A DNA stretch of 64,000 nucleotides from Limnanthes douglasii subsp. nivea (Eukaryota > Streptophyta > Magnoliopsida > Brassicales > Limnanthaceae), in assembly GCA_036936605.1 (NCBI GenBank), contig JAUPFV010000001.1, positions 217,339,530-217,403,529 of the forward strand, in the 5' to 3' direction. Shown piece after piece: positions 1,270 through 59,804 of this stretch (positions are counted from its first letter, which is position 1; each line of letters begins with the position of its first letter). A program made the translations under genes and the position numbers. The notes beneath the pieces were generated by a model. That model did no database searches. It had not been told where the DNA came from and saw only the letters and a list, made by a program, of their open reading frames with translations.

Positions 1270-2560
1270 GAGGTGATTCGTCACAGCTTGGTTATTAATC
1301 CAAAGGTGCAACCAGTAATTCAGAAAAGAAGGGCCTTTTCCTCGAAAACAATCAGAAGCAATTATTGCCGAGATGGATCGATTATCTAAGGTCGGATACA
1401 TAAGGGAGTCACAGTATCCCTTGTGGACGGCAAACCCGGTAGTGGTAAAAAAGAAGAATGGGAAATGGATAATGTGCGTGGATTTTACAGATTTGAATCG
1501 AGCTTGTCCTAAAGATCCATTTCATGTTCCTCGAATAGATAAGCTGATTGATTCTACCTCACGCAATAAAATTTTGACTTTCATTGACGCTTTTGCAAGA
1601 TACAATCAAATTCAAATGGATCAAAAAGATCAAGAATGCACAACTTTCCTAACTAACAGGGGCTTACATTGTTATAGGGTTATGCCTTTTGGATTAAAAA
1701 ATGTTGGAGCCACTTATCAGAGGTTAATGAATAAATTTTTTACCACTCAGATCGGAAGAAATATGGAGGTATATATAAATTATATGGTGGTAAAAATTTC
1801 AAAGGATGAGGTGCATCTTGATGATTTAGAGGAAGCGTTTTTTAATTTAAGGGAAATCAGGTTAAAACTAAATCCTGAAAAATGTACCTTCGGAGTTTAG
1901 TCATGGAATTTTTGGGTTTTGTAATGAGTGAAAAAGGAATAGAGGCTGAACCATAGCAGTTGAAAGCTTTGATAACAATGAATTCACCTTGATCTGTTAA
2001 AGAAGTGCAAATTCTGACAGGAATGTTAGCAGCACTTAATCGATTTATTTCTAGATTTTCTAACAAATACTTTCCTTTCTATCAAGTTTTACGAGTACCA
2101 ATCAGGTTTGAATGGACAGTGGAATGTGAGATAGTGTACACAAATATAAAAACTTTGTTGTCATCACCAGAAATATTGTCAAAACCTCGAAATGGGGATA
2201 AACTATTTTTGTACATTGCAGTATCAGATTTTGCACTAATAGTAGTGTTAATCAGTGAAGATTCAGGTGTTCTGAAGCTGGTGTACTACATCAGTAAAAG
2301 TTTAGTGGCAGCAGAAATAGGTATTTGAAATTAGAAACACTGGCATTAGCACTGGTGATTGCTGCTAGGAAGATGCGTCCATATTTTCAAGCTCACACTA
2401 TTGAATTCCGAACTTCATTCCCTTTGAAAAATGTTTTACAACGATCTCATATTTTGGGGAAAATGACCAAGTGGTCAGTGAAGTTGGGGGATTATGATAT
2501 TTTGTTCACACCTCGGACAACAATAAAGGCGCAAGATTGGCATATTTTTTTTGTTAAATT
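1270..2560 (+). pseudogene. Reverse transcriptase and RNase H remnant (Tat-type gypsy)
   Basis: The open stretch at 1373-1900 encodes RT motifs: KKKNGKWIMCVDFTDLNRAC, a FIDAFARYNQI block holding the first catalytic aspartate, and MPFGLKNVGATYQRLMN. The catalytic YxDD box has decayed to YINYM at about 1771-1785, so both paired aspartates are lost. After a frameshift at about 1900, 2005-2328 holds the RT thumb/connection and the beginning of RNase H, and 2325-2633 continues RNase H. The order matches gypsy Pol. Confidence 0.85.
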
Positions 2561-3468
2561 TCATTCGAGCAGATCGGATGTGGAAGAGAGTAGATGCACC
2601 AGTAAATTCGAGGTGGGTTGTTCGAAAAGATGAAGCATCTAGTGTTTCAGGGTGCAGTGATGGGGTTCAGTTAATAGCCCCAACTGGAGAGACGATGATT
2701 CAATCTATTAAATTTAGTTTTCATGCTTCGAACAATAAAGCTGGATACGAAACTGCTTTGGCAGGTTTAAGATTGGCAAAACATTATGGAGCAACTTCAG
2801 TACTCTTGGAAACAGATTCTCAATTGTTAGCAAATCAGGAATCTGGATTTTCTAAAGCAAGAAATGATCATTTGATTTTATATCCTCAGGAACTTCGGAA
2901 TTTAATGCTTATGTTTGACAATGTTGTTGTGGAATATATTGGTCGAATGAGTAACATGGTTGTTGATTCTTTAGCAAATATCGTTTACAAGGAAGAATAT
3001 CCTTGGATTTTGCTACAAGAAAATCCTTCAACTATTACTCAATCTAATCAGTGTGAATGCACAGATGAGTTCTTTGTTGCATTTGAAATAATCCGAGGTG
3101 ATTGGCGAGCAGATATTCTCAGTTTTTTTACTCAAGGAATATTATCAGATGATTCGAGGTGGCAAAAAAAAAGGATAGGTAAAGCCTTCAGATATATAGT
3201 GTTAGATGGAATATTGTATAAAAAGGCATTGAGCATGCCATTATCACGATGTCTAGGAAAGCAAGAATCACAAGAGGTGTTATCAGAATTGCATGTTGGT
3301 GAAGGGTCAACTCATTGCGGGTTTAAAGCTCTATCACGACGAGTTTTACTTGCAGGATTCTATTGGCCTACAATCATGAATGATGCTAAGAATTTAGTTC
3401 AAAGTTGTGATACTTGTCAAAGATTTTCTAATGTTATTCATAGGCCAGCGGTGCCACTTATATCATAA
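2551..3468 (+). pseudogene. Second (aRNase H) domain and integrase zinc-binding domain
   Basis: This 305-codon open stretch first shows an archaeal-type RNase H domain (SFHASNNKAGYETALAGL, then LLETDSQLL). It then shows the integrase N-terminal HHCC region, with THCGF followed by CDTCQRF near 3310-3425. The extra RNase H between the first RNase H and integrase marks the Tat lineage. It is the longest undisturbed part of this element, but it is cut off from RT and the integrase core by frame breaks. Confidence 0.85.
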
Positions 3469-18876: not shown

Positions 18877-20681
18877 TCCCCTCCCACTTGAAGAGAATTT
18901 GTCCTCAAATCCTGATCATCTGCACAAAAGGGAATTAAGTTAGTGATATTAAAGCTTGAACTTACAGAACACTTACCTTGCAAATCCAATTGGTACGCAT
19001 TGTCGTTAATGCATTTAACGACCGTGAAAGTTCCATCAACTCGGGGCATGAGCTTAGATCGACGCTCTTCTGGAAATCGATCCTTGCGTAAATGGATAGT
19101 CTGTTTCCGATGCTTATTAGCGGCATTAGCATACTACTTTGTTTTTGCTTCAATGTAGGCATGGGCCTTCGCGTGGATCTGCTTAACTAATTGAGCTTTC
19201 TATTCCCCATCAAGGCTGGCACGCTCATTCAATGGTAAAGGTAACAGATCCATAGGTGAAATCGGGTTAAAACCATAAATAATTTGGAACGGTAAATGCT
19301 TGGATGCAGAATGAACAGAATGATTGTAAGCGAATTCTACATGCGGTAAGTGTTCCTCCCAAGTCCGAAGGTTCTTTCCTACAAATGCACGCAACAATGA
19401 CCCTAAGGTCCTATTTACTACCTCGGTCTGTCCATCACTTTCTGAATGACAGGTTGTGGAAAAACACAACTTGGTTCCTAACTTAGACCATAAGGTCCTC
19501 CAAAAGTGACTTAAGAACTTGGTATCCCTATCGGAAACGATTGTCTTAGGCATGCCATGTAGTCTAACTATTTCCTTGAAAAACAAACTAGCCATGCGAC
19601 ATACATCATCGGTTTTACTACATGTAATAAAATGTGACATTTTTGAAAAACAATCAACAACAACAGAAATGCTATCCTTTCCATGACGAGTCCTAGGTAA
19701 CCCTAATATGAAGTCCATGGACAAGTCAATCCAGGAATGAATAGGAATAGGCAGAGGATGATACAAACCGTGGGGCTGAGTCGTAGACTTAGCCATCTTA
19801 CACTTAGCACAACGGCTGCAGATGCGTTCCACATCTTTCTTCATATAAGGCCAGTAGAAATGTTCTCTCATGATGGTCATTATCTTAGACATACCAAAAT
19901 GTACCATAAGACCACCAGCTTGAGCCTCTCGGACAAATAATTCTCTTAAGGAACAAGATGGAACACAAAACCAATTCTCATAAAACAAGAATCCATCTTG
20001 AAGGTAGTGTCGACCTGCAGGATTTCTCAAACACGACTTATAAATTTCTCCATAATCTTGGTTAGTTTCATACAATTCTTTAATGTGTTCGAACCCCATA
20101 TGTTTAACTTCTAGAGTAGAAAGAAGAGTGTACCTCCGAGAAAGGGGGTCCGCTACAACGTTCTCCTTTCCTTGTTTGTACTTAATCACATACGAAAAGG
20201 TTTCTATGAATTCCATCCACTTAGTGTGGCGTTTGTTCAGCTTGTGTTGGCTTTTGAGGTGCTCTAAGGACTCGTGGTCAGTATGAATGACAAACTCCTT
20301 TGGCCACAAGTAATGTTGCCACGTTTGGAGAGATCGGACAATGGTGTATAGTTCTTTGTCATATGTGGGGTAGTTCAGTGTTGCTCCCCCAAGGTTTTCA
20401 CTGAAGAAGGCAATGGGCTTTTTCTCCTGCATAAGCACTGCTCCAATTCATATCCCTGAGTTGTCACATTCAATCTCAAAAGTATTAGTGAAATTAGGTA
20501 ACATAAGAAAGGGTGCATTAGTGAGCGTATTCTTAAGAGTTCGGAACGCTTGTTCTTGTGTCATTCCCCATCGGAAACCTCCATCTTTCTTGATGACTTC
20601 GGTCAAGGGCGTGGCTATGGTTCTAATCCTTGACGAACCGTCGATAAAATCTGGTAAGACCATGAAAGCTTCGGACTTCAC
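18450..20681 (-). pseudogene. RNase H, integrase and LTR-encoded C-terminal extension of the CRM-like Pol
   Basis: 20681-20448 carries the end of RT and start of RNase H. The 412-codon frame 20438-19200 has RNase H ([12 protein letters not shown]), the integrase HHCC finger (HFG...CSRCAKCK), and the integrase core with all catalytic residues ([30 protein letters not shown]). After a break, 19049-18738 holds the integrase C-terminal domain ([20 protein letters not shown]). That frame passes through the PPT into the LTR to a TAA, then stays in the same frame to 18450 with the motif GLMTRSKTKFIQ. The single TAA replaces a Glu codon preserved in the other LTR. Confidence 0.85.
18877..18889 (-). 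other. Polypurine tract of the CRM-like element
   Basis: AAGTGGGAGGGGA on the minus strand, directly upstream of the 3' LTR. It is simultaneously translated as part of the Pol frame (QVGGDN). Confidence 0.85.
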
Positions 20682-20765
20682 TCACGGTTTTAGGTGCTGA
20701 CCAATCTCGTATTGCCTTGACCTTCTCCTCGTTTACTTGGAATCCATCTGCACCAACTACAAATC

Positions 20766-21332
20766 CTAAAAATATAAATGATGCGTACCAAAGGAACATT
20801 TCTCCAGATTAGCAAACAGACCCTCACGCCTATGAACATCTAGGACAGCCTGAATATGTTTAACATGATCCTTTTGACTTCGGCTATAGATTAAGATGTC
20901 ATCAAAGTATACTACAAAAAAATTCCCAATAAACTCCCTAAATATATGGTTCATTAACCTCATAAAATTACTAGGTGCGTTGGTAAGACCAAATGGCATA
21001 ACGAGCCACTCATAAAGACCATGCTTAGTTTTAAAAGTGGTTTTCCACTCATCACCTTCCTTCATTCGGATTTGGTGATATCCACTTCTTAAATCAACCT
21101 TAGAAAATATGCAAGCATCATACAATTTATCCAGCATGTCATCTAGCCTAGGAATGGGATGTCTATATTTTACCGTAATGTTGTTGATTGCACGGCAATC
21201 AACACACATTCTCCATTTACCGTCTTTTTTGGGAACGAGGAGGATTGGCACGACACAATGGCTTAGGCTTTCGCGGATATGGCCCTTACATAGAAGTTCT
21301 TCTACTTGCCTCTGCAGCTCCTTGGTGTCCAC
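20766..21332 (-). pseudogene. Reverse transcriptase of the CRM-like element
   Basis: An undisturbed 188-codon frame with all RT motifs: [35 protein letters not shown] (first Asp), [17 protein letters not shown] and [11 protein letters not shown] (the catalytic YxDD). A stop follows at YF* where the protein would normally run on into the RT thumb, so it is cut off from RNase H by a small frame lesion. Codons 1-10 overlap the end of the preceding frame (21689-21354). Confidence 0.9.
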
Positions 21333-21353
21333 AGGATTGGTCCGGTATGCGGG

Positions 21354-35490: not shown

Positions 35491-35499
35491 TTTACTCTA

Positions 35500-35545
35500 G
35501 GAAATTGCTAAAAAATGGGCCAAAACTACTCCGCGAAGTCGCATG
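35500..35545 (+). repeat. Left terminal inverted repeat of the MULE
   Basis: Matches the inverted right end (43534-43490) at about 36 of 41 positions, including GCTAAAAAA, GGGCCAAAA and TACTCCGCGAAGTCG. Confidence 0.9.
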
Positions 35546-35762
35546 TTTCTGATTTTAAATATTTACAAAAATGTCACTAGGCAAAAAACCCAAAAAACCC
35601 TTTGAAGTCTAAATATTTACAAGTGATGCCATTGAAGAGAACCAAACTACTCCATGAAGTTGCAAACATAATTTCAAACTTCATCTTCTCCAAACCTACT
35701 AAAAATAGAAACTTAACAACCAACAAAACCCATTTTTTAAAAAAATTCAAAACCTTTACAAC

Positions 35763-38700
35763 ATGGACGGAAAAGAGTCGGAAGTACTTCCCACGGATAG
35801 TAGCATGGTCGCCGAGGAGCTACATTGCATTTCCCTCTTTTATTTTCGCCAAAAAATAGATTTTGTGAAAAATTTTGTATATGGTGTTCGTCGCCACCCT
35901 CCGGCGTGGACGACATGCCGTACGCCATCCCAAAGGCGTATGGCACCTTCCCTTCGTCATCGGTTGGCGTGTGGGACACTCTGTACGCCACAGTGTGGCA
36001 TCCTGTCTGTCTCCCACGCCAGTGGGTGGCGATGGGAAGGTTCCATACGCCTATGGGATGGCGAAATATGCTTCCCTTATCCGGAATGCCGGCTTAATTT
36101 GTTTTTCTACTTCTTACGTATTGCAGGAGGTGAACGAATGCGATATTTCGCTTGTTTCGGACTACACTCACCATTTCACCACTCACGACGAGTATAGCTT
36201 AGAGTCGATGACCGAGTGGGTAAAACTAAGGGGGAAAACGTTGGGTTTTTCGATAAACGTAGCATCGAAGGAGGTATGGAAGAGGGGGAGAACACCGAGA
36301 GTGGATTATCGGTGCGAGCGATCCGGAATTTTCAAGTCGGTCGTTAAAGAGTGCGACCGTAAGCGTAAGGCCACCGGTAGCAAAAAAATAAATTGCCCTT
36401 TTCATTTGGTGGGTAATCCGTTAAAAGAAGACGATAAGTGGGCTCTTAGTGTCCTTTCCGGGAAGCACAACCACGAACCGATCAAGTATGCCGAAGGACA
36501 TTTGCAATGGTCCAAGTTAAAACGTAAGGAAAAAGAGCTCGTTGATCTTTTGACGGTGAACGGGACAAGTCCGCGACAAATATTTGGTGCTTTGAAAAAG
36601 GTCGATCCGGAGAATGCTTCAAATATCTGTCACGTTTACAATCACCGTCAAAGAACGAGGATGGCTGAAAACGGCGGTCGATCCCAAATGCAATGCTTGT
36701 TAGTTAAATTAAAATTGCACAAGTACAAGTATTGGACACGGACGGGGAATGACGGTTCTAACGTCATAACCGATTTGTTTTTCGCACATCCGCTTAGTAT
36801 TGACTTGCTACAGACCTTCCCACGCTTGCTAATCATGGATAGCACATATAAAGTTATTCGTTACGGGATGCCTTTGTTCGAAGTAGTCGGGGTAACATCG
36901 ACCAACAAAACATTTTGCATTGGTTTCACGTTTATGGTGAGTGAAAACAAGACAACTACGAATGGTATTTGGGATGCTTGAAAATGGTAATGGAGGAGAA
37001 TGATTGTGAATTACCGTGTGTTATCATTACGGACCGCGAACTAGCCTTGATGAATAGCATCGACAAATTTTTCCCTAGCGCTAGTCACATGTTATGCGAG
37101 TGGCATATCAACAAAAATGTTAGCGGGAGAACGAAAAAAATGTTTGAAGACGGAAATGTGGCTAAAAGTTTTTTGGTGGCTTGGAACGACGTTGTTTCAT
37201 CTGATACCGTTGAGGTTATGAACGAGAGGTTGGCTAAGATGCGGTCGATGTTCAAAGACCAAGATAAGGCGGTCGATTATGTGGTTGACTCGTGGATTAC
37301 GCCTTATAAAGAGAGGTTTGTTCACGCTTATACTAACAAGATCATGCATTTTAATAACCACACCTCTAATAGGGCCGAAAGCTCGCATGCTACATTGAAA
37401 AAATATGTGGGGTCTAGCCGATTGGATTTCGATGGGTTTTGGGATAAAGTGCATGGCTTGTTAGCGATGCAACATTCTACTATTAAAGAATCGATGGAGC
37501 TTAGCAAGTGTCGTTTAATTCACAAATTCCAAGATTTCAAACCGTTCAAATTTTTACGGGGGTATGTATCACCTATTGCATTGGCGATAGTATACGATAA
37601 CTATGTTGATAAAAGCGGCGGTGAAAAATCTATGTGCGTTTGCACCGATCGTACGATCCATGGTTTGCCGTGTTCCCACGACCTTGAGGCAATCCGAAGA
37701 GTGGACGGCCATGTACCTACTCGGATTATAGATGAGCATTGGAAGAGACTAGATATCGTTTCGCGAGTTAAACTCACCGGTGAAGAAGAAGTAAAATTTA
37801 ATTTCGCAAATCTAAATGCGAAACTTGAAGAGTTTGATGTTTACGAACAAAGTCATTGGCTCAAAAAATTTCAAAATTTTTTGGATCCTTCGACTACACT
37901 CCTTTGCGAACCCCTCGAGAAGGTTAAAACCCGCAGTAGAACTCCCGGACGTGTTGGAAACCGTGGTCGTGGACGGGGTCGGGGTCGCGTTAAGGGTAGA
38001 AATGTCCAACGTGATTATTCTACGAAAAGAGATCCTTCGTGTCACGAATACGTCGAACAAGAAATGTTTGAGTCCCATGATAGTGCCGAAACTCCACGAG
38101 TTGTAACACCCGCCGCTAGTATAGCAACCCCGGTCGGCACTCTCGGTAGCACCGCAAGAACGGTTGCCGCACATACTCCGACTAATTCCGGAGCAAAACC
38201 CCCAAAAAATATAGCAAAACGGGTTCAATGCGTTGGTTTAGGCACTCCGGATACGTCGAACCACATCAAGGCTATACCGTCATTCACGGCTAAACCATTC
38301 CCGACTAGATTACCAAATGTTTTGGACTCGAGATTTTCAAAAGACATACCTCAATATATGTGTCCTTTCATAAGCCGAATTACAAATGTAATGCCCGACG
38401 GTAATTGTGGTTTTAGAGCCATCGCGCATGGTATGGTTGGTAACGAAAGTGGATGGCTAATGGTTAGAGAAGCCTTGGTTCACGAGGTAAAGAGCGATCG
38501 GGAGTTTTATAAACGGGTTGCATATTACGGCGATGAAAGCGAAGTTGATATGGAGATAAACTGGTTGACTTTTAATAAAGAGAATGCACCTTACGCAAAA
38601 TGGATGTCCTTGCCTAGTTGCGGAAAACAAGTCGCGACTACATTCAATTGCGTTTTCTATTGCCTCGCTCCCGGTGGATGTACGACTTACCTACCGGTGA

Positions 38701-39038
38701 AAAATGCACCGCCGAGCGATGGTTCTTTAAAGGAGATCGGCGTGGCATTCGTCAATAAAAACCATTTTGTTCATGTGAGTAAATAACTTTAACTTTTACA
38801 CGCATTTAAGAATTTATTTTGTAAACGCGCATTGATATTGAATTTGTAGGTTGAGTTGGTTAAAGGGTCACCCATACCGACTATAGATCCTACGTGGATG
38901 AGATCGGCGAGAGAAGACGCTATTTCTTGGTCGATTCCTTTGCTAGATAGAGTCCGTGTATTTTCAAGACTTCAAAATCCCACAACGACACACTTCGTTG
39001 AACATGATGATTCGATAGTGGACTTAACCAAAGATTGA
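35763..39038 (+). CDS. MULE transposase fused to OTU-type cysteine protease domain (one frameshift)
   Basis: Proposed exons 35763-35876, 36127-38774 and 38850-39038. Both introns are GT-AG and phase 0. Exon 2 is one base short of a whole number of codons: at about 36945-36952 an A seems lost from an A-run, shifting SEN.. to the frame reading NYEWYLGCLKMVMEEN. Allowing for that, the protein is about 983 residues. In order: WRKY-GCM1-type finger (YRCERSG, NCPFHL, GKHNHEP), DDE core (MDSTYK Asp 36838; ITDREL Asp 37032; CEWHINKN; NRAESSHATLKKY Glu 37377), SWIM finger (CVCTDRTIHGLPCSH, about 37635-37680), RG-rich linker (GRGRGRGRVKGR), then OTU with PDGNCGFRAIA (Asp 38397, Cys 38406) and NHFVHVELV (His 38763). 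The transposase part would bind the ends and move the element; the OTU role is unknown, though its catalytic residues are present. Confidence 0.85.
35877..36126 (+). other. Transposase intron 1 containing hairpin cluster 1
   Basis: GTATATGG donor and a pyrimidine-rich ...TTACGTATTGCAG acceptor; removal keeps phase 0 between KNF and EVNEC. It holds at least five short inverted repeats of the ACGCCA...TGGCGT type (for example CCGTACGCC-N8-GGCGTATGG at 35918-35943, GTACGCCAC-N3-GTGGC at 35983-35999, ACGCCA-N4-TGGCG near 36016-36031). The segment can also be read through in frame. Confidence 0.6.
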
Positions 39039-39580
39039 ATTTATTTCAAAATCGAATTTATTTTGTGTTCGGTTATGTTTTTGCTTTTTTGTTGTAAACT
39101 AACAATGTGTTGTACCCTTTTAACCACGTTCCTTTTAATGAATTTTTTTTTATAAAAAAATTGACTTAATAAATTCGGGATAGTAGTTTTCGCCAGCCGA
39201 ATGGCGTAAATGACGTTCAGCGCGCCATTCGTTGGCGTAACTGGAGCTCCCCACGCCAAGGGATGGCGTGCAGAACGTCCCCTACGCCATTCGCCTGGCG
39301 TAGAAGACACTTTTGAAGCCTCTGTCCCAAAAGAACAGAGGCGAACCAAAACATTAACCCTATTGCCGCCACACGTTGGTGAAAACGGGTATCCCTACGC
39401 CGTTGTGTGGCGGCAATAGAGTAGAATTAGTAAAAAAAAAAATTCTAAATTTTTTAAATTGAACCGCTAATTGAATGATTATGTATTTTTCTTGTTCTAA
39501 ACTCATTATGTATTGTATTCAAGTTCCAATTTCTATTCAACTAGATTTTTTTTAAAAATTGAATTCAAAATTTAAGAGGG
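39039..39580. repeat. Hairpin cluster 2, downstream of the transposase gene
   Basis: Consecutive inverted repeats at about 39189-39290 of CGCCA-N5to6-TGGCGT type (CGCCAGCCGAATGGCG, GCGCCATTCGTTGGCG, ACGCCAAGGGATGGCGT, TACGCCATTCGCCTGGCGTA). Then GCCTCTGT-N7-AACAGAGGC at 39318-39341, and 14-bp perfect arms TATTGCCGCCACAC / GTGTGGCGGCAATA (39360-39418). The cluster is bounded by AT-rich sequence. No coding function was found. Confidence 0.85.
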
Positions 39581-39654
39581 ACCCACCAACACAATTTCCT
39601 AAATTACTCAGTAAAGTTGCATAGATTATTAAATTCAACCGGGACCCACCAACA

Positions 39655-39800
39655 CAATAACTCCCGCCAAAAAAAACCCACCAACGTTTAATCCCCGCCA
39701 ACACAAATACTCCCGCCAAGAACTCCAGCCAAAAACTCCCGCCAAGGAGTCCACTAAAGAAAAACTCTCGCCAAAAAATAACTATATTATATAAACATGT
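39655..39800 (+). promoter_or_regulatory. Promoter of the small MULE gene with repeated CTCCCGCCAA motifs and TATA box
   Basis: Six imperfect copies of CTCCCGCCAA between 39661 and 39776 (39661, 39691, 39710, 39723, 39736, 39765). On the minus strand the motif reads TTTGGCGGGAG; the first copy fits the plant E2F consensus WTTSSCSS, the others match it only partly. TATATAAA follows at 39788-39795, 75 bp before the ATG at 39870. Confidence 0.5.
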
Positions 39801-39869
39801 CAGAGAATACAATATTCATAATAGAAGCAAATAGTCCACTTAAGAAAAAAAACACAAACACTTGAATAC

Positions 39870-40247
39870 ATGGAGTTTACAGCTGATGAAGACTACCATA
39901 TGCTCAAAGCGGTGAAGGTTGTCGCCCGACAAATGGGGGAAGATAGTAGCGATGCTTTCTTCGACCGCCTCCTATGTCAGATGTATTTCAACTATGGGCA
40001 TTTAGGAGCAGGAGACGTTCAAGTGTGAAGTCGTGACGAAATCAAATCCAGGTACAACTTCATCCAACCGCTCACTGCTCTGCTTTTTCAACCAGCCAAG
40101 ATTAAGATAGAAGCACCTTTGGTCTGGAACATGACGCTAGTAGACTACATCAGTAGGGATATGGTGGCGTATCTGGAGGATAGGATTGTGGTAAGGAATG
40201 AGGGGGATGATTCGGATGACAATTTGGGATACGATTTCGACGACTGA
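39870..40247 (+). pseudogene. Small acidic protein gene of the MULE, function unknown (one in-frame TGA)
   Basis: From ATG 39870 a single frame of 125 codons ends in TGA at 40245-40247, broken only by TGA at 40026-40028 (codon 53), which a single C-to-T change in an Arg codon would explain. It starts MEFTADEDYHMLKAVKVVAR and includes FDRLLCQMYFNYGH and FIQPLTALLFQPAKI. It ends in an acidic tail (EGDDSDDNLGYDFDD). It is mainly helical-looking with no Cys/His finger, signal or membrane segment. It has its own TATA box. I do not recognise the family. Alternatives are a regulatory or accessory protein of the element, or a captured host fragment. Confidence 0.6.
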
Positions 40248-40576
40248 TCATTTCACTATTTCCGTGTTTGTGCCGTCGAGTTATTATGTTTAGTAGTCTG
40301 TGTTTAAATTAAGTAACTCCAGAATGTGTGTTGTTTTAGATGGTACTACTATTTCAATTATGTTTGCTATTGTGTTTAAATTATGTTCAACTCTGTTTCA
40401 ATTATGTTAAAAATTATGTTAAACACAACCAAAACATCTAAGTAATTTCCAAATTACAAAAACATTCATTTCAAACAGAGTAAACCCATAGTACGTGTTC
40501 CAAAAAACAAGCAAACCAGCAAAGTAAGCGACAACAGAATCAAAGTATCATACAAACAGAAAAAACATCATAATGT
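40248..40576. other. Short region between converging MULE genes
   Basis: T-rich then A-rich sequence with repeated TTATGTT motifs; probably the 3' ends of the small gene and the PMD gene. No frame seen. Confidence 0.5.
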
Positions 40577-42420
40577 CTATGAAAGCCTCCTGGCTGTGGA
40601 CAAAACATCGTCATAAGCCCCAGCCAGACGATCGAAATCATGATCAAACTCGCTCACTCCAGGAAACAACGAGATCCTCCGCATACCAGCACGCAAATGT
40701 CGGATGATAGCTCTCTCTCGATCCTCATGGACGTAGTCATCGAGCGAGTAGATTGCGGTGTTGACGAGGTCGAACCAGCTAATACTCTGGTGAAGTAGTA
40801 GGTACTCAGGCTCACAAAAAGACTCCATCTCGTCTGTCACCATCCCTCCTCGAAAACCACGATGCAACTTGTTCCTCCCCCGCCGCTCCCAATCATCCGG
40901 ATCGAATGCATACACCATCGTCTTCGGTTTTCTCCTTGATTTCGACTGCATGTCTAACAAAGGATGCGCGATAGCCCGCTGGATACGGCCAAACTGTCGC
41001 TGAACTCGCTCTGGATAGTATGGGTGAGAGTGCTCCACACTGCATATGACATCCCGAAACCACGATATATCTTCGAACGGGAAATGCTCGCGTATAGCAC
41101 GATAAGGATCAAACAATACCTGCAATATAAACGGATATGAACATAAACACAAAAATAAATCAATTTTGGGATCACTAAAGATTAACACTTACATTGCTCT
41201 CTTCCAGGTTGTTGACGGAGATACGAAGGTTCAGCTTCGTCCGTGAGTCAGATACTGCTGCAGCTGTATCCCATCTACCAATAGTGGGGTCACGCTCAGT
41301 GTAGGTGCGTCGAGTAACAGGCCGGAGCATGAAAAAATGATCCCGTATCCACGTGTCTTCCATACCGATACATCCGGCCATAGTCCTCGTGTCGTGCAGG
41401 GAGGCCTCACCCAGATGGTGGTACAAGTAAGCGAGAACAGCACTACCCCATGAGTACCTGCCAACACCCTCCGGAGTCAAATCGCGCAACAAAAACAAAT
41501 ACTTGTAATTGGAGTACATGTTGCTCTTGTCGGGGAATATGACCGTGCCGAACATATGCAATATATAGGCGCGGACAGCCGCATCCACCATCAGATCACT
41601 CAGACCAGGGCTGTCATCGCAGAACTCTGGCCCACTAAACCTACTCCAGAGCCATTTAAATCTCAAACCAACGCCCTTGCATTTCTCAACCTCCGTCACG
41701 GAGGATAAATCATCCACCATAAGCATTTCAGCGCACTCGTGCATGGCCAGAGTCTTGTCAGAAATATAGGGAAACACAGCAAGCTCACCATCAACTGGGA
41801 GTCCCAAAATAGTATGGACGTCGTCCAGAGTAATCGTCATCTCTCCGAAAGCCAAATGGAAGCTATTGGTCTTCGCATGCCACCTCTCTAGGAAAACCTC
41901 TGTCATGTTGGAGTGTGTGTGCATCTCATAGAACGGCTCTATGAGACGACCGAACGGGGTGGCATCAACTACAGCGCGTACCCTAGTCTGTGCAGCCAAA
42001 CTCCATGCTCGATGACTAGGATAATGGGCATACAGCCGCATCTCGCTCCTGAAAAGATTTGTTCCCATTATCATAGGACAAAACAAAATAACTTCATAAA
42101 ATGTAAAATTGGAATTTCGATATTACCTCTCCCATCCAAATGTGGTATGCAGTGTGGGAGGTGAAAGCCTCGCCGAACAGCGGTGGCAATCTGGCCGGAG
42201 GAGGAGCTCTACGCTGCCCTGTAGCCGGTGGGGGATGACGTCGTCCGCGGGAAGCGGAAGCTGAAGCTGAACTCGATCCGGACGCATGCGGTCCGGAGAC
42301 TATAGGGAGCTCATCCATCTGGACAGGTAAAACTGACTGACCAGCGTCACGTACCCTACTCCGCTTATTTTTTCTCCTAGTCCGCGAGCCATCAGACTGT
42401 GCATCGTCGTCGTGATCCAT
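40577..42420 (-). CDS. Plant mobile domain (PMD) protein encoded by the MULE
   Basis: Exons on the minus strand: 42420-42127, 42041-41193, 41119-40577 (561 codons). The N-terminal exon is basic and low-complexity (RTRRKNKRSR, a possible nuclear signal; Ser/Ala and Pro runs). Exon 2 is the PMD: MRLYAHYPSHRAWSL, FLERWHAKTNSFHLAFGEMT, ITLDDVHTILGLPVDGELAV, FKWLWSRF, YSWGSAVLAYLYHHLGEAS, WIRDHFFMLRP. Exon 3 continues with FPFEDISWFRDVI and PERVQRQFGRIQ. PMD domains occur in MAIN/MAIL host proteins and in transposons. Intron 2 (41192-41120) is clean GT-AG. For intron 1 the best acceptor (CAG ending at 42049) shifts the frame, whereas AG directly before ATGCGGCTG at 42041 keeps it. A TTTTTCAG acceptor just upstream of the ATG hints at a 5' leader intron. 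Confidence 0.85.
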
Positions 42421-42559
42421 CACCTGAAAAAAAAAGTACTAAGTATCAGGTTTCGTCGGAAACACAAATTGTCACGCTGATACATTTTTTAGACAAATAA
42501 TAGCATAAAACGGGCTAACACAAACCAAAGAGCAAGAATAAACCGGTCCCTGTCCATTC

Positions 42560-42800
42560 CTGTGACCGGAGCTGCCATACGCCACCAATGTGGCGTGGGT
42601 ATGTAGACGTACGCCACAATGATGGCGTACGTCTACATACCCACGCCACAATGGTGGCGTATGACAGGTTTCCTACGCCATCTCGTGTGGCGTAGGGTTG
42701 GTGCCCTACGTCACATGGATGGCGTGGGGAAGCTGTTCTTCGCCCCCGTGTGGCGAAGAACAGCTTCGCCATGGCAGAAGTTTGAAGCTTCTGCCATGGC
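42560..42800. repeat. Hairpin cluster 3, upstream of the PMD gene
   Basis: Seven or so hairpins in a row: CATACGCCAC-N4-GTGGCGTGG, ACGTACGCCA-N6-TGGCGTACGT, CCACGCCAC-N4-GTGGCGTATG, CCTACGCCA-N8-TGGCGTAGG, CCCTACGTCA-N6-TGGCGTGGGG, then perfect 14-bp arms AGCTGTTCTTCGCC / GGCGAAGAACAGCT (42731-42765) and perfect 13-bp arms GCCATGGCAGAAG / CTTCTGCCATGGC (42768-42800). The first three combine into one 88-bp hairpin. Confidence 0.9.
42576..42663. repeat. 88-bp near-perfect hairpin
   Basis: Arms 42576-42616 and 42623-42663 are reverse complements over 41 bp with a single mismatch (perfect over the inner 27 bp); the loop is CAATGA. Confidence 0.95.
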
Positions 42801-43489
42801 TTACGAACAGCCCAAAAATCAATTTTTTCAACAAATCTACCCTAACTAAACCTATTTAAACCTAACTAACCTATCTAACAACAACGAAATGGACTTACAA
42901 TGATTGTTCGATTCCGGTTGCTTCCTGTTACTCTGACCAGACTCTTCGGTGACGATTCCGGTTTATATGGATCGTGTGGTGGTCGTAATAGGTGCCGGTG
43001 GGTGTGAAGAGTGGCCGGTTTAGGGTAGATTTCGGTTTAGGGTAGATTTCGGTTTGCTCTTTGTGGCTGCTCCTGCTTTTTGTGTGGCTGCTCCTTGCTC
43101 CTGCTCTTTGTGCTGTGCGGTGCGGCAGGCAAGTCTTCTTATCTTTTGTTTTACTTTTGTTTCTGTTTTAGTTTTGTTTAGGTTAATTTAGTTTTAGTTT
43201 AGGTTTATTTAATTTAGGTTAGGTTTATTTATTTTAAGTAAGATTTTAATTTTAGATTTAGATATGTTTTAATTTATTTTACTTTAGGTTACTTTTAATT
43301 TTAAGTTATAATTATAGTTAAAAATTTTATAATTTTTTTTAGAGAGAAGATAGAGCAAAGTTAGAGAGTTTGAGGGTTTTTTTTGAAATTATGATAACTT
43401 CGCGTAGTAAAATTGAGTATTTATACGATTTCGTAAAGACAAAATCGTCAAAAAAAATAACTTCACAGAATAGTTTAAAAAAATAATTA
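42801..43489. other. Probable leader/promoter of the PMD gene and subterminal region of the MULE
   Basis: Contains a 17-bp tandem duplication GGTTTAGGGTAGATTTC (about 43017-43050) and degenerate TTTAGGTT repeats (43140-43320). Copies of the subterminal motif ACTTCGCGTAGTAA (43397-43410) and ACTTCACAGAATA (43460-43472) lie near the end. No coding frame. Confidence 0.5.
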
Positions 43490-43534
43490 TAAACGACTTC
43501 GCGGAGTAATTTTGGCCCTTTTTTAGCAATTCCA
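43490..43534 (-). repeat. Right terminal inverted repeat of the MULE
   Basis: Inverted partner of 35500-35545. Flanked by TTTACTCTA at 43535-43543. Confidence 0.9.
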
Positions 43535-43543
43535 TTTACTCTA

Positions 43544-57076: not shown

Positions 57077-59804
57077 TTATGCATAAGCTAACAAGACGAA
57101 GGCAGAAACTGAGATGGTCATAAGTGTTCGGAGAAAAGAGATGACTTGTCGGACACTGCTATTCGGCAACCATGGATAAGAATCGGGAGGTGGCATCACA
57201 CAGTTATCGCCGTTAAAATATACCCTACGAGGAAAAGCCCACCCCTTTTCTAGAGTGAAGGTTGATGGGTCTTTTCTGATTAACAGCTCTGATTGAACGT
57301 TCCCAAGAGCTTGAGGTCCAGCTTGCGAGAGAAAATCGTTATAAAACTTCACACCCCATAACATTGCCGTATCATCTGCAAAACCAGTTATTAGTTTAAT
57401 TGCTTGGATTCTCCTTTCAATGTTGTAGTAATGTTTAGAAGTTGTTTGTATCGTATAGGTTAGTTTGGTCCAACTTTTTAAACAGTAAATAAAATGCTTG
57501 TTTCATCTAAAGCTTTTTTTTTCACATAAAATAAGAAGAAAGTATGCCTAAACATGACATGACTTCTCTAACAATTTTTTTTTTGTCTAATAGAAACTTA
57601 CCACCAAACAAACCATACCAATAGAAACTAAGCACACTCTATTTTGAGCAAGAAAAGGAGTTACTTATTTATACGTGATAAGGATGATTGAACTTACTTA
57701 ATCCCGCATAAGGAGTCAATGATTTGTAATTGTAGCTGAAAGTCTCGGTAAGATTATCGAAATTCGGATGTTGCACGACTAAATTCCATTGCGAGTAATT
57801 CATTCTATAATTAAAATTTGTAATGGTGACCTTCACGCGCCAGTACTCTTTGTAATTGAGCTTAACATGCCAATGAACTCGAATAGGACACATATGGCTG
57901 GTACACTGAACTAGAGGCTGAGGCGCATTCCCTTGTTTTGTTATGGTCGGAACAACCGAAGCCAAATGTAAATGGTTTGGGCTGCAAAATACCATCAGAA
58001 GCTAATGTCATAAGAAACAAATATTAATGGCATGACGAGAAATAAAAAAAGATCGTAAAAAGACATCAAGACAAACTTACTCCACACAGCTAGTGGGATC
58101 TGTTCCATTATTTTGACAGCCACATGTACAAGTTGGGCAATTTACTATGGTGTTGTTATAGAAAGCCGAAAGCGAGACACAGCATGTTGGTGTCCTTTGA
58201 GCCAAAAATTGTGAATATGTGCAAGTAACGTTCCAAGTCACTGCCATACAACAAATTTAAGATATCGGTTATATCTAGATCTACAAGAATGTTTTTTCAA
58301 TTTCATGTTTCGTTTTAGACTTGAGAATACTTTAGTTAAGAAACTTACTCATGGCTTGAGTAACCCTTCGAGTATCTGAAGTAACAAACTTAGTTGGTTT
58401 AACGATCTTAGCAGGACCGCAGGTGTAACCAGGCCCGGGTGCTCTAAGTGTGAAATTTCTCGGCACACGAACAGTTTTATTAGTGGTTCCAGCAGAGCCC
58501 ACGCTGATTTGGAATGAGCTTGCAGCATTAGAAGGGTCCTGCACCCAAGAATTCAGTACCCCTCCTTTGCAACAATTTGAAATCTGCTGGTTGTAAGGCG
58601 TTCCGGGTAGTAAATCGACAACCGTAGGAGTTTTTTGGCAGCAATGAGGGATGTTGCCTTTGAACTTTGAACAATCTCCTTGCTCCGTAGTTTGGCCTCC
58701 CACCATTCCCCAAATAACTTCCTTCTTAGCCCATGACCACCCCAGTGTCCAACCTGGCGCTTCGATATGACGGTACTTCTGGAAGTTAAAAAGTGTAACC
58801 ACCGCCTGTAGAAACCAAACAAGACATCGTTAGGAAATCACCGTACGATAAATTAACAACCAAACCCATATTGTTTGTATGTAAACTTACAACATAGCCA
58901 TCGGGTGTCCAACTCATTACATCCCATTTTAATGTGATGTTTCCTTCTGGATCAAGTGAATCGTATGCTTCTGCATAATATTCAGCACAAAAGATCAACA
59001 CTCAAATATCATAAAGATCTTGTAAGTTCGGATTTGACCATTTATGAAACTGAATACAACCCATTTTATATGGATGCAGTAAATCAAGACATCATTTTAA
59101 CAACCACAAAGACAAAACCAGACTTTCTCTTTTCGCACACAAGATCGAATCAAATCTCCAGTAAGTGATTCACTTTTTGATTTTGTAACTTTAGCATTGC
59201 AACTTCATTCCAAACAGTATCATCAACCAGATCATATGCCATAACAAACTAAAAAGAAAACCAATCTGTGATAGTAATAAAAATAAAAAACCAGAAGCTT
59301 AACAAAAACTTATTTCTAATAATTCACAAATCAATAAACATAAAGAAGATTATCTCTCTGGATCCATGTACGAATCTATAGGGATGGTTTCTTAATAGAG
59401 CAAGCACAATTGATTAGTTAATTCCATGAAGTTAAGATAAGCTGATTAACAAACAAGAACCCGAATCGAGAACTGAGAAAAACAAATTGCTATAGAAAAT
59501 TCCAGACAAAACTAAATCAAGATCGGAATTTATGTTTTCAAAATTGGTGAGTAATCCATACCGACAGTAAAATCAATAGTCAGTGACATCAAGTTTGTTG
59601 GGAACTAAAAGACAGTCTTAGATTAGAGTTAGATAAACTACAGAAACAAGACAGGAAGCCAAATACGGAATTTGTGTGTGTATGTTTTGAAGAGAGGTTA
59701 CCTGTGGAAGTGAAAGTGGAGCAAGAAAGCAAGAGCAGAAGAAAAGCAAAGAAAGTGGTTAGCTTGGTGATGGATCTTGAAGTTGATGCAGAGAGAGACT
59801 CCAT
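57077..59804 (-). CDS. COB: COBRA-like GPI-anchored cell-wall protein
   Basis: Six exons on the minus strand: 59804-59702, 58970-58891, 58805-58349, 58240-58081, 57981-57698, 57375-57077. All junctions are GT-AG, 1,383 nt in total, giving 460 residues, the usual length for COBRA. An N-terminal signal peptide (LTTFFAFLLLLLSCSTF) is followed by the COBRA domain (GNITLKWDVMSWTPDGYV, APGWTLGWSWAKKEVIWGM, CCKGGVLNSWVQDP, RVPRNFTLRAPGPGYTCGP). Then come the family's Cys-rich CCVS motif (PTCCVSLSAFYNNTIVNCPT, CTCGCQNN), the C-terminal region (NYKEYWRVKVTITNFNYRMN, GWAFPRRVYFNGDNCVMPPP) and a hydrophobic GPI-attachment tail ending AFVLLAYA. Family members sit on the outer plasma membrane and guide cellulose microfibril orientation and anisotropic growth. 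It is closest in my memory to COBRA itself; COBL1 is the alternative. The gene appears intact. Confidence 0.95.

Follow-up and report, generated by a model that had tools for sequence, protein, structure and literature searches.

The stretch of DNA analysed here, 64,000 nucleotides of Limnanthes douglasii subsp. nivea (contig JAUPFV010000001.1, positions 217,339,530 to 217,403,529; the window), contains a Mutator-like element (MULE) that carries a transposase gene, a small acidic gene (S2) and, on the opposite strand, a gene with a PMD domain. The element ends in terminal inverted repeats (TIRs) and is flanked by a 9-bp target site duplication (TSD). Its ends and genes, in window coordinates, are the following.

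35500..43534, no strand: the whole Mutator-like element, 8035 bp, with TIRs and 9-bp TSD.
35491..35499, no strand: left TSD, TTTACTCTA.
43535..43543, no strand: right TSD, TTTACTCTA.
35500..35541, plus strand: left TIR.
43494..43534, minus strand: right TIR.
35763..35819, plus strand: predicted transposase exon 1; the splice donor after it is lost in the window copy.
36127..38774, plus strand: transposase exon 2, with FAR1 DNA-binding domain, MULE DDE domain, SWIM-like CxC..CxH motif, linker and OTU domain.
38850..39038, plus strand: predicted transposase exon 3.
38346..39038, plus strand: OTU-like cysteine protease domain, extending from exon 2 into exon 3.
39870..40247, plus strand: small acidic gene S2, with an in-frame TGA at 40026-40028 in the window copy.
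42127..42420, minus strand: predicted first coding exon of the PMD gene.
41193..42048, minus strand: second coding exon of the PMD gene (Pfam PMD), with a two-base shift at its start.
40577..41119, minus strand: predicted third coding exon of the PMD gene.
42424..42898, minus strand: predicted intron in the 5'-untranslated region (5'-UTR) of the PMD gene, with GTAAGT as donor and TTTCAG as acceptor.

The TIR arms at 35511-35541 and 43494-43524 (31 bp) are 94% complementary. With up to 3 mismatches allowed over its 21 positions, the TIR core has only two occurrences in the 64 kb, where 0.04 would be expected, and a fraction of about 0.0002 of 20,000 random pairs, allowed the same offset slack, reaches the 9/9 match of the flanks. 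These two tests rule out a chance origin of the ends. Both the TIRs and the duplication, which is of 8-11 bp and usually 9 bp in MULEs, are those of a MULE, and the boundaries that the initial annotation called firm on these grounds are confirmed at exactly 35500-43534. The search for further copies that it had proposed yields hundreds of ends. The commoner family form of the left end (26 bases) has 376 exact occurrences in the 1.78-Gb host assembly, and the reversed control has none. Of 41 left-end matches, the 20 best-scoring after the window were fetched; a 9/9 duplication is present in 15 of the 21 sequences, window included. Eighteen of the fetched stretches and the window form the set of 19 long copies to which the counts of gene content refer.

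The window copy itself is dead, as all three of its genes are broken. The transposase is frameshifted by one base near 36,940 and has lost the exon-1 splice donor, which 16 of 17 other readable copies retain; the seventeenth, L027, is a satellite whose transposase does not work. S2 is interrupted by its TGA at 40026, and in the PMD gene the second coding exon begins with a two-base shift relative to all 15 other readable copies. The initial annotation correctly listed the three genes and overlooked that the copy is dead. Open copies are present elsewhere: 123 of the 137 best-scoring PMD exon matches and 49 of the 73 best-scoring transposase matches, genome-wide and with the window included, have no internal stop. 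These numbers are lower bounds; they cover the matched exon and not frameshifts or splice losses beyond it, and they come from best-scoring lists that lean towards intact copies.

Transposase, S2 and PMD are found in all 19 long copies, some of them damaged or partial, which bears out the initial view that the three genes are cargo of one element and travel together. L013 and L025 have a shortened S2, and in some other copies S2 is shifted or truncated at its end; L009, L015, L019 and L020 have a rearranged or partial PMD. Two further small genes are absent from the window: of the long copies, 13 have a full and 1 a partial S3, and 8 have a full and 1 a partial S1. The core of the element consists of transposase, S2 and PMD; S1 and S3 are optional.

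The transposase of the window copy has FAR1 and MULE matches above the Pfam cut-offs. The MULE DDE domain (PF10551) exceeds its cut-off on either side of the frameshift and is found at E 0.01 in all 23 members of an alignment of the window protein with 22 of 28 database protein matches. Pfam SWIM has no match in the transposase; the SWIM-like CxC..CxH is visible in the alignment. The OTU match is under the gathering score (13.9 vs 23.3 bits, E 0.081) and is reached at E 0.01 by none of the 23 members. The motifs DGNCGFR, with the catalytic Cys, and NHF, with the His, are present, the former in 21 and the latter in 19 of the 23 proteins. An AlphaFold2 model of a 600-residue part of the transposase has a mean pLDDT (predicted local distance difference test) of 64.9 and a pTM (predicted template modelling score) of 0.33; in its OTU part most 10-residue blocks exceed a pLDDT of 85, and the best matches of the predicted fold among solved structures are OTUD1, OTUD3 and DUBA, with probability 1.00. 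Because the domain lies below the Pfam cut-off, yet has the OTU fold and the catalytic Cys and His, it is named OTU-like. By the model, then, the C-terminal domain of the transposase is OTU-like, as first annotated, and is predicted to cleave ubiquitin. No Ulp1 protease is among the Pfam matches listed for the window proteins and the alignment members; the protease found is OTU-like.

The opposing gene is a PMD gene, as the initial annotation had it: PF10536 matches the minus strand with E 3.8e-39 and 135.3 bits, against a gathering score of 34.9. At least 34 of the 73 transposase matches listed have a listed PMD match within 9 kb, and PMD is on the strand opposite to the transposase in all 34 of these pairs. 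Eight same-strand PMD matches with 306-residue open frames lie within 1.5 Mb on contig C334 (about 226.75-228.27 Mb), a candidate duplicated or co-opted cluster. One copy from this cluster, L054, keeps S2, S3, PMD and the right part of the element; neither transposase nor left end was found in it, so that at least one PMD gene stands outside a complete element.

Selection was measured as pooled pairwise pN/pS (nonsynonymous relative to synonymous differences) with a codon bootstrap; L022 and L027 were dropped, as were, for each gene, copies covering less than 60% of it. Pooling over pairs ignores shared ancestry, and the intervals are approximate. The ratio is 0.50 (0.42-0.59) for the transposase, 0.29 (0.18-0.51) for S2 and 0.54 (0.36-0.77), 0.31 (0.23-0.44) and 0.39 (0.28-0.57) for the PMD exons. 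Leaving out copies with a stop in the gene gives 0.39 for the transposase, 0.25 for S2 and 0.54, 0.32 and 0.33 for the PMD exons. Intron sequence read in frame with exon 2, as a control, gives 1.09. S1 (0.78), S3 (0.87) and the OTU domain alone (0.67, 0.42-1.13) are not distinct from 1. The alignment of copies that had been proposed as a check on the three genes thus shows purifying selection, as read from substitution patterns, on transposase, S2 and PMD.

S2 is one of a family of small proteins. S1, S2, S3 and S4, the last from short copies, belong together, the others being 25-40% identical to S2. The notion of S2 as a single isolated open reading frame is rejected by this membership, and that of a noncoding accident by its pN/pS of 0.29. 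The S proteins have no match at E 0.001 among 5.8 billion proteins in a word-based search, which can miss distant relatives; against Pfam they have matches at E 0.2 or worse only, and Foldseek with S2 gives no match at E 0.001. Models predict a helical core of three helices that is weakly Myb/trihelix-like. Two features precede S2.

39663..39745, no strand: four CCCGCCAA sites.
39788..39793, plus strand: TATA-box-like site, 82 bp before the S2 start.

The CCCGCCAA sites occur nowhere else in the 64 kb. All 15 copies with a readable start have 3-6 of them ahead of the TATA-like site, and none elsewhere in the stretch fetched for those copies; the stricter pattern TTTSSCGS occurs 0-3 times per copy. 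The sites are putatively E2F-like; E2F-like repeats before a TATA-like site would suggest expression of S2 in S phase.

Not all elements with these ends are long. Two fetched copies, L022 and L027, are without PMD, have only a transposase fragment and carry S4; L022 has in addition an S3-like frame. The right end of L022 (308-5462) is conflicting, with a 9/9 duplication and a weak TIR at 1.65 kb and a strong TIR without duplication at 5.15 kb, and may represent nested or adjacent elements. On contig C1, 98 exact family ends are listed, forming 19 adjacent forward-reverse pairs within 30 kb and none in reverse order. Five pairs are 2.43-2.51 kb apart, thirteen 8.2-9.8 kb and one 6.4 kb. Four of the five short elements have a 9/9 duplication, and the fifth an 8/9 duplication in a run of A. 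All five contain a transposase fragment and two folded hairpin clusters, and none has a PMD match; S4 is intact in four and broken in L031. L027 is of the same kind, and S4 is intact in 5 of these 6 satellites overall. S4-like frames have at least 150 matches in the genome at 74-100% identity (best-scoring list), 130 of them without a stop. Twenty diverged frames, hand-picked across the identity range from those without stops, give together with L022 and L027 a pN/pS of 0.70 (0.50-0.999) for S4. The 2.4-kb satellites thus share the family ends and carry one small gene, S4. The initial annotation had held that same-ended copies without PMD and the small gene would speak against a joint unit; L027 and the five further 2.4-kb elements have the same ends and lack PMD, and to that extent its view is qualified, the long copies conforming to it throughout.

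The noncoding DNA of the element contains a repeated motif, TGGCG/CGCCA, in hairpins.

35923..36063, plus strand: hairpin H1 in predicted transposase intron 1, with TGGCG/CGCCA motifs and a covarying stem.
39191..39300, plus strand: hairpin H2, beyond the stop codon of the transposase, with another stem at about 39367-39425.
42572..42667, minus strand: hairpin H3 inside the predicted PMD 5'-UTR intron, with 45-bp arms that are 96% complementary.
42720..42800, minus strand: two further short hairpins in the same predicted PMD intron.

The density of TGGCG/CGCCA is 4.5 per kb inside the element and 0.38 outside. Three GC-rich clusters hold 7, 10 and 11 occurrences, against 0.7-0.9 in a first-order Markov control. 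Folding z-scores in the window are -11.4 for H1, -9.7 for H2 and -14.2 for H3. Strong folding of the equivalent clusters is seen in the majority of the other copies, each scored against 20 mononucleotide shuffles; exceptions are L010 (z -4.2) and L016 (z -2.0), in which folding of the right-hand cluster is weak. The motif cluster before S2 does not fold, with z near 0 in most copies. Both sides have changed in 14 of the 54 pairs of H1, giving 49 double-change cells against 15.1 in shuffles, a value that none of 500 shuffles reaches, although relatedness of the copies can inflate this significance. Slid versions of H1 give at most 9 such cells, and the weakest of five covariation measures, further pair types, is reached by 13 of 500 shuffles. 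H3 has a double change in 9 of 46 pairs (8 sequences); H2 covaries weakly, with one in 32 pairs of the predicted consensus structure. The own right arm of H1 is the best or tied partner in 11 of 19 copies. The motif columns of the H1 stem have a diversity of 0.027 and the other stem columns 0.221. Of 21 sequences, 10 have a readable copy of the predicted GTAAGT donor before H3; among them are L022 and L027, both short elements, in which it precedes S4. The search string does not find the donor in 10 sequences, and the aligned site of L013 reads differently. Rfam has no match in the window.

Outside the element, open frames at window positions 1319-3468 and 19200-21353 look like fragments of Ty3/gypsy reverse transcriptase and integrase, and a frame at 58332-58829 resembles a COBRA-like cell-wall protein.

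Several components of the element have been described separately. That PMD occurs next to MULE transposases or antisense to them has been published (PMC6446971, PMC5418596), the MULE-PMD groups being MUDR, MUDRAVI2, MDR and MULE-Solanaceae_1 (Dupeyron et al. 2019, PMC6446971), and grasses and Amborella have MULE transposases with a fused PMD-C (PMC5418596). The present family shares with the plant PMD MULEs the 9-bp TSD, a MULE transposase with a SWIM-like motif and a PMD that is often antisense, and resembles MULE-Solanaceae_1 in particular, which is listed with an unknown open reading frame and an antisense PMD (PMC6446971). As far as their published descriptions extend, it differs from them in the FAR1 N-terminus and C-terminal OTU of its transposase, in its small genes, one core and two optional, for which no database match was found, and in its motif hairpins and small-gene satellites; "OTU" has no occurrence in the main text of PMC6446971. 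With VANDAL and its VANC proteins, as described in PMC5735166, it has in common extra proteins in a MULE and a fast-evolving short motif repeated in introns and intergenic DNA. Unlike those, its motifs form paired hairpins and its proteins are small and predicted to be Myb/trihelix-like, a distinction drawn from descriptions. Kaonashi and related MULEs with Ulp1 (PMC13317346) likewise carry a ubiquitin-like-modifier protease; here, by the accounts compared, the protease is an OTU fold fused to the transposase, and no Ulp1 is among the matches listed.

A C-terminal OTU is also present on the transposase of some Ginger1 families, and OTU in some animal Helitrons (PMC2836005). The Ginger1 transposase is of integrase type and animal, and PMD or small genes are not mentioned in the relevant part of PMC2836005; the association of OTU with the two transposases is likely convergent. 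OTU-bearing MULE proteins are present in databases from Perilla, Rhododendron, Rosa, Camellia, Spinacia and Puccinia. They are known from the proteins alone, and most of the 22 aligned have the MULE domain and the OTU Cys and His motifs. Two proteins of the rust fungus Puccinia, P0098 and P0100, have the same layout of MULE and OTU motifs as the plant transposase, a possible hint of a deep or horizontal link. Among the open-licence papers listed by literature searches, none describes, by its title, a plant MULE of this kind, nor was the combination with an S-gene family, covarying motif hairpins in predicted first introns and small-gene satellites found there. Because MULE-borne PMD is published and OTU-bearing MULE proteins recur, the family is a MULE variant and not a new kind. 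Of the initial proposal of an undescribed mobile system, what remains is the combination, which was not found in print in these searches.

These features suggest to us, with about an even chance of being right, that the window holds a damaged copy of a high-copy, 9-bp-TSD MULE family with a FAR1-DDE-OTU transposase, in which S2 and PMD likely sustain expression despite silencing. By analogy with VANC as described in PMC5735166, the most likely mechanism that we infer is element-encoded, motif-directed protection from silencing. The transposase would cut and paste the element via its TIRs. The S proteins, whose three-helix core is predicted to be Myb/trihelix-like, would bind a short motif that is repeated in the noncoding DNA of the element, candidates being the TGGCG hairpins and the CCCGCCAA promoter repeats, and would recruit, or shield against, host chromatin factors, as VANC does for VANDAL. 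The PMD protein may target the MAIN/MAIL-PP7 silencing pathway of the host or serve as a decoy for it; an anti-silencing role for MULE PMD has already been speculated on (PMC5418596). The OTU domain may take ubiquitin off the transposase or off chromatin at the insertion site. A more specific version, which we hold only tentatively and think rather doubtful, is a counter-silencing module independent of VANC, in which tiny orphan Myb/trihelix-like proteins would read a TGGCG code that covarying hairpins in introns display, PMD and OTU giving support, and in which the satellites have shed almost all else and keep the small protein and the hairpins.

The hairpins may instead act as RNA: those of the first introns would be excised with the predicted introns of the transposase and PMD genes and diced to small RNAs, or would serve as decoys, and so tune host silencing, while the small proteins serve transposition, for example as complex subunits. 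The long near-perfect stems and the compensatory changes in H1 and H3 agree with such a role, as does the location of these two in predicted first introns; the predicted donor preceding H3 can be read in just under half of the sequences. TGGCG is conserved far beyond the needs of pairing, however, H2 lies outside the predicted introns with its single double change, and Rfam matches are lacking in the window; an RNA role is live as an explanation and, in our judgement, unlikely. To a similar degree we doubt that the hairpins are a functionless by-product, their arms homogenised by repair or gene conversion within each copy so that covariation means nothing and the motif is a palindrome seed. 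Complementarity at non-motif stem pairs is indeed higher between the arms of one copy (0.908) than across copies (0.777), and arms gain and lose units between copies, but homogenisation leaves unexplained the diversity of the motif columns, about one eighth of that in the other stem columns, and the recurrence of two hairpin clusters in divergent 2.4-kb elements. It is far less probable that PMD, OTU and the small genes are passive host-derived cargo of Pack-MULE type with no role for the element. Capture of host genes is frequent in MULEs (PMC5418596, PMC13317346), and S1, S3 and OTU are without clear constraint. For S2 and PMD, passive cargo is rejected by their presence in every long copy and by pN/pS values well below 1.

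To our knowledge, there are few systems in which the escape of plant transposons from silencing is understood at the molecular level, VANC being the main one. The family found here is large, has many open copies in one genome and carries accessory genes under selection, and covarying hairpins show directly where its putative recognition sites lie. The purpose of MULE-borne PMD, a question asked in PMC5418596, becomes testable by way of a small protein, a short motif and a naturally occurring satellite, and so does the contest between the element and host silencing.

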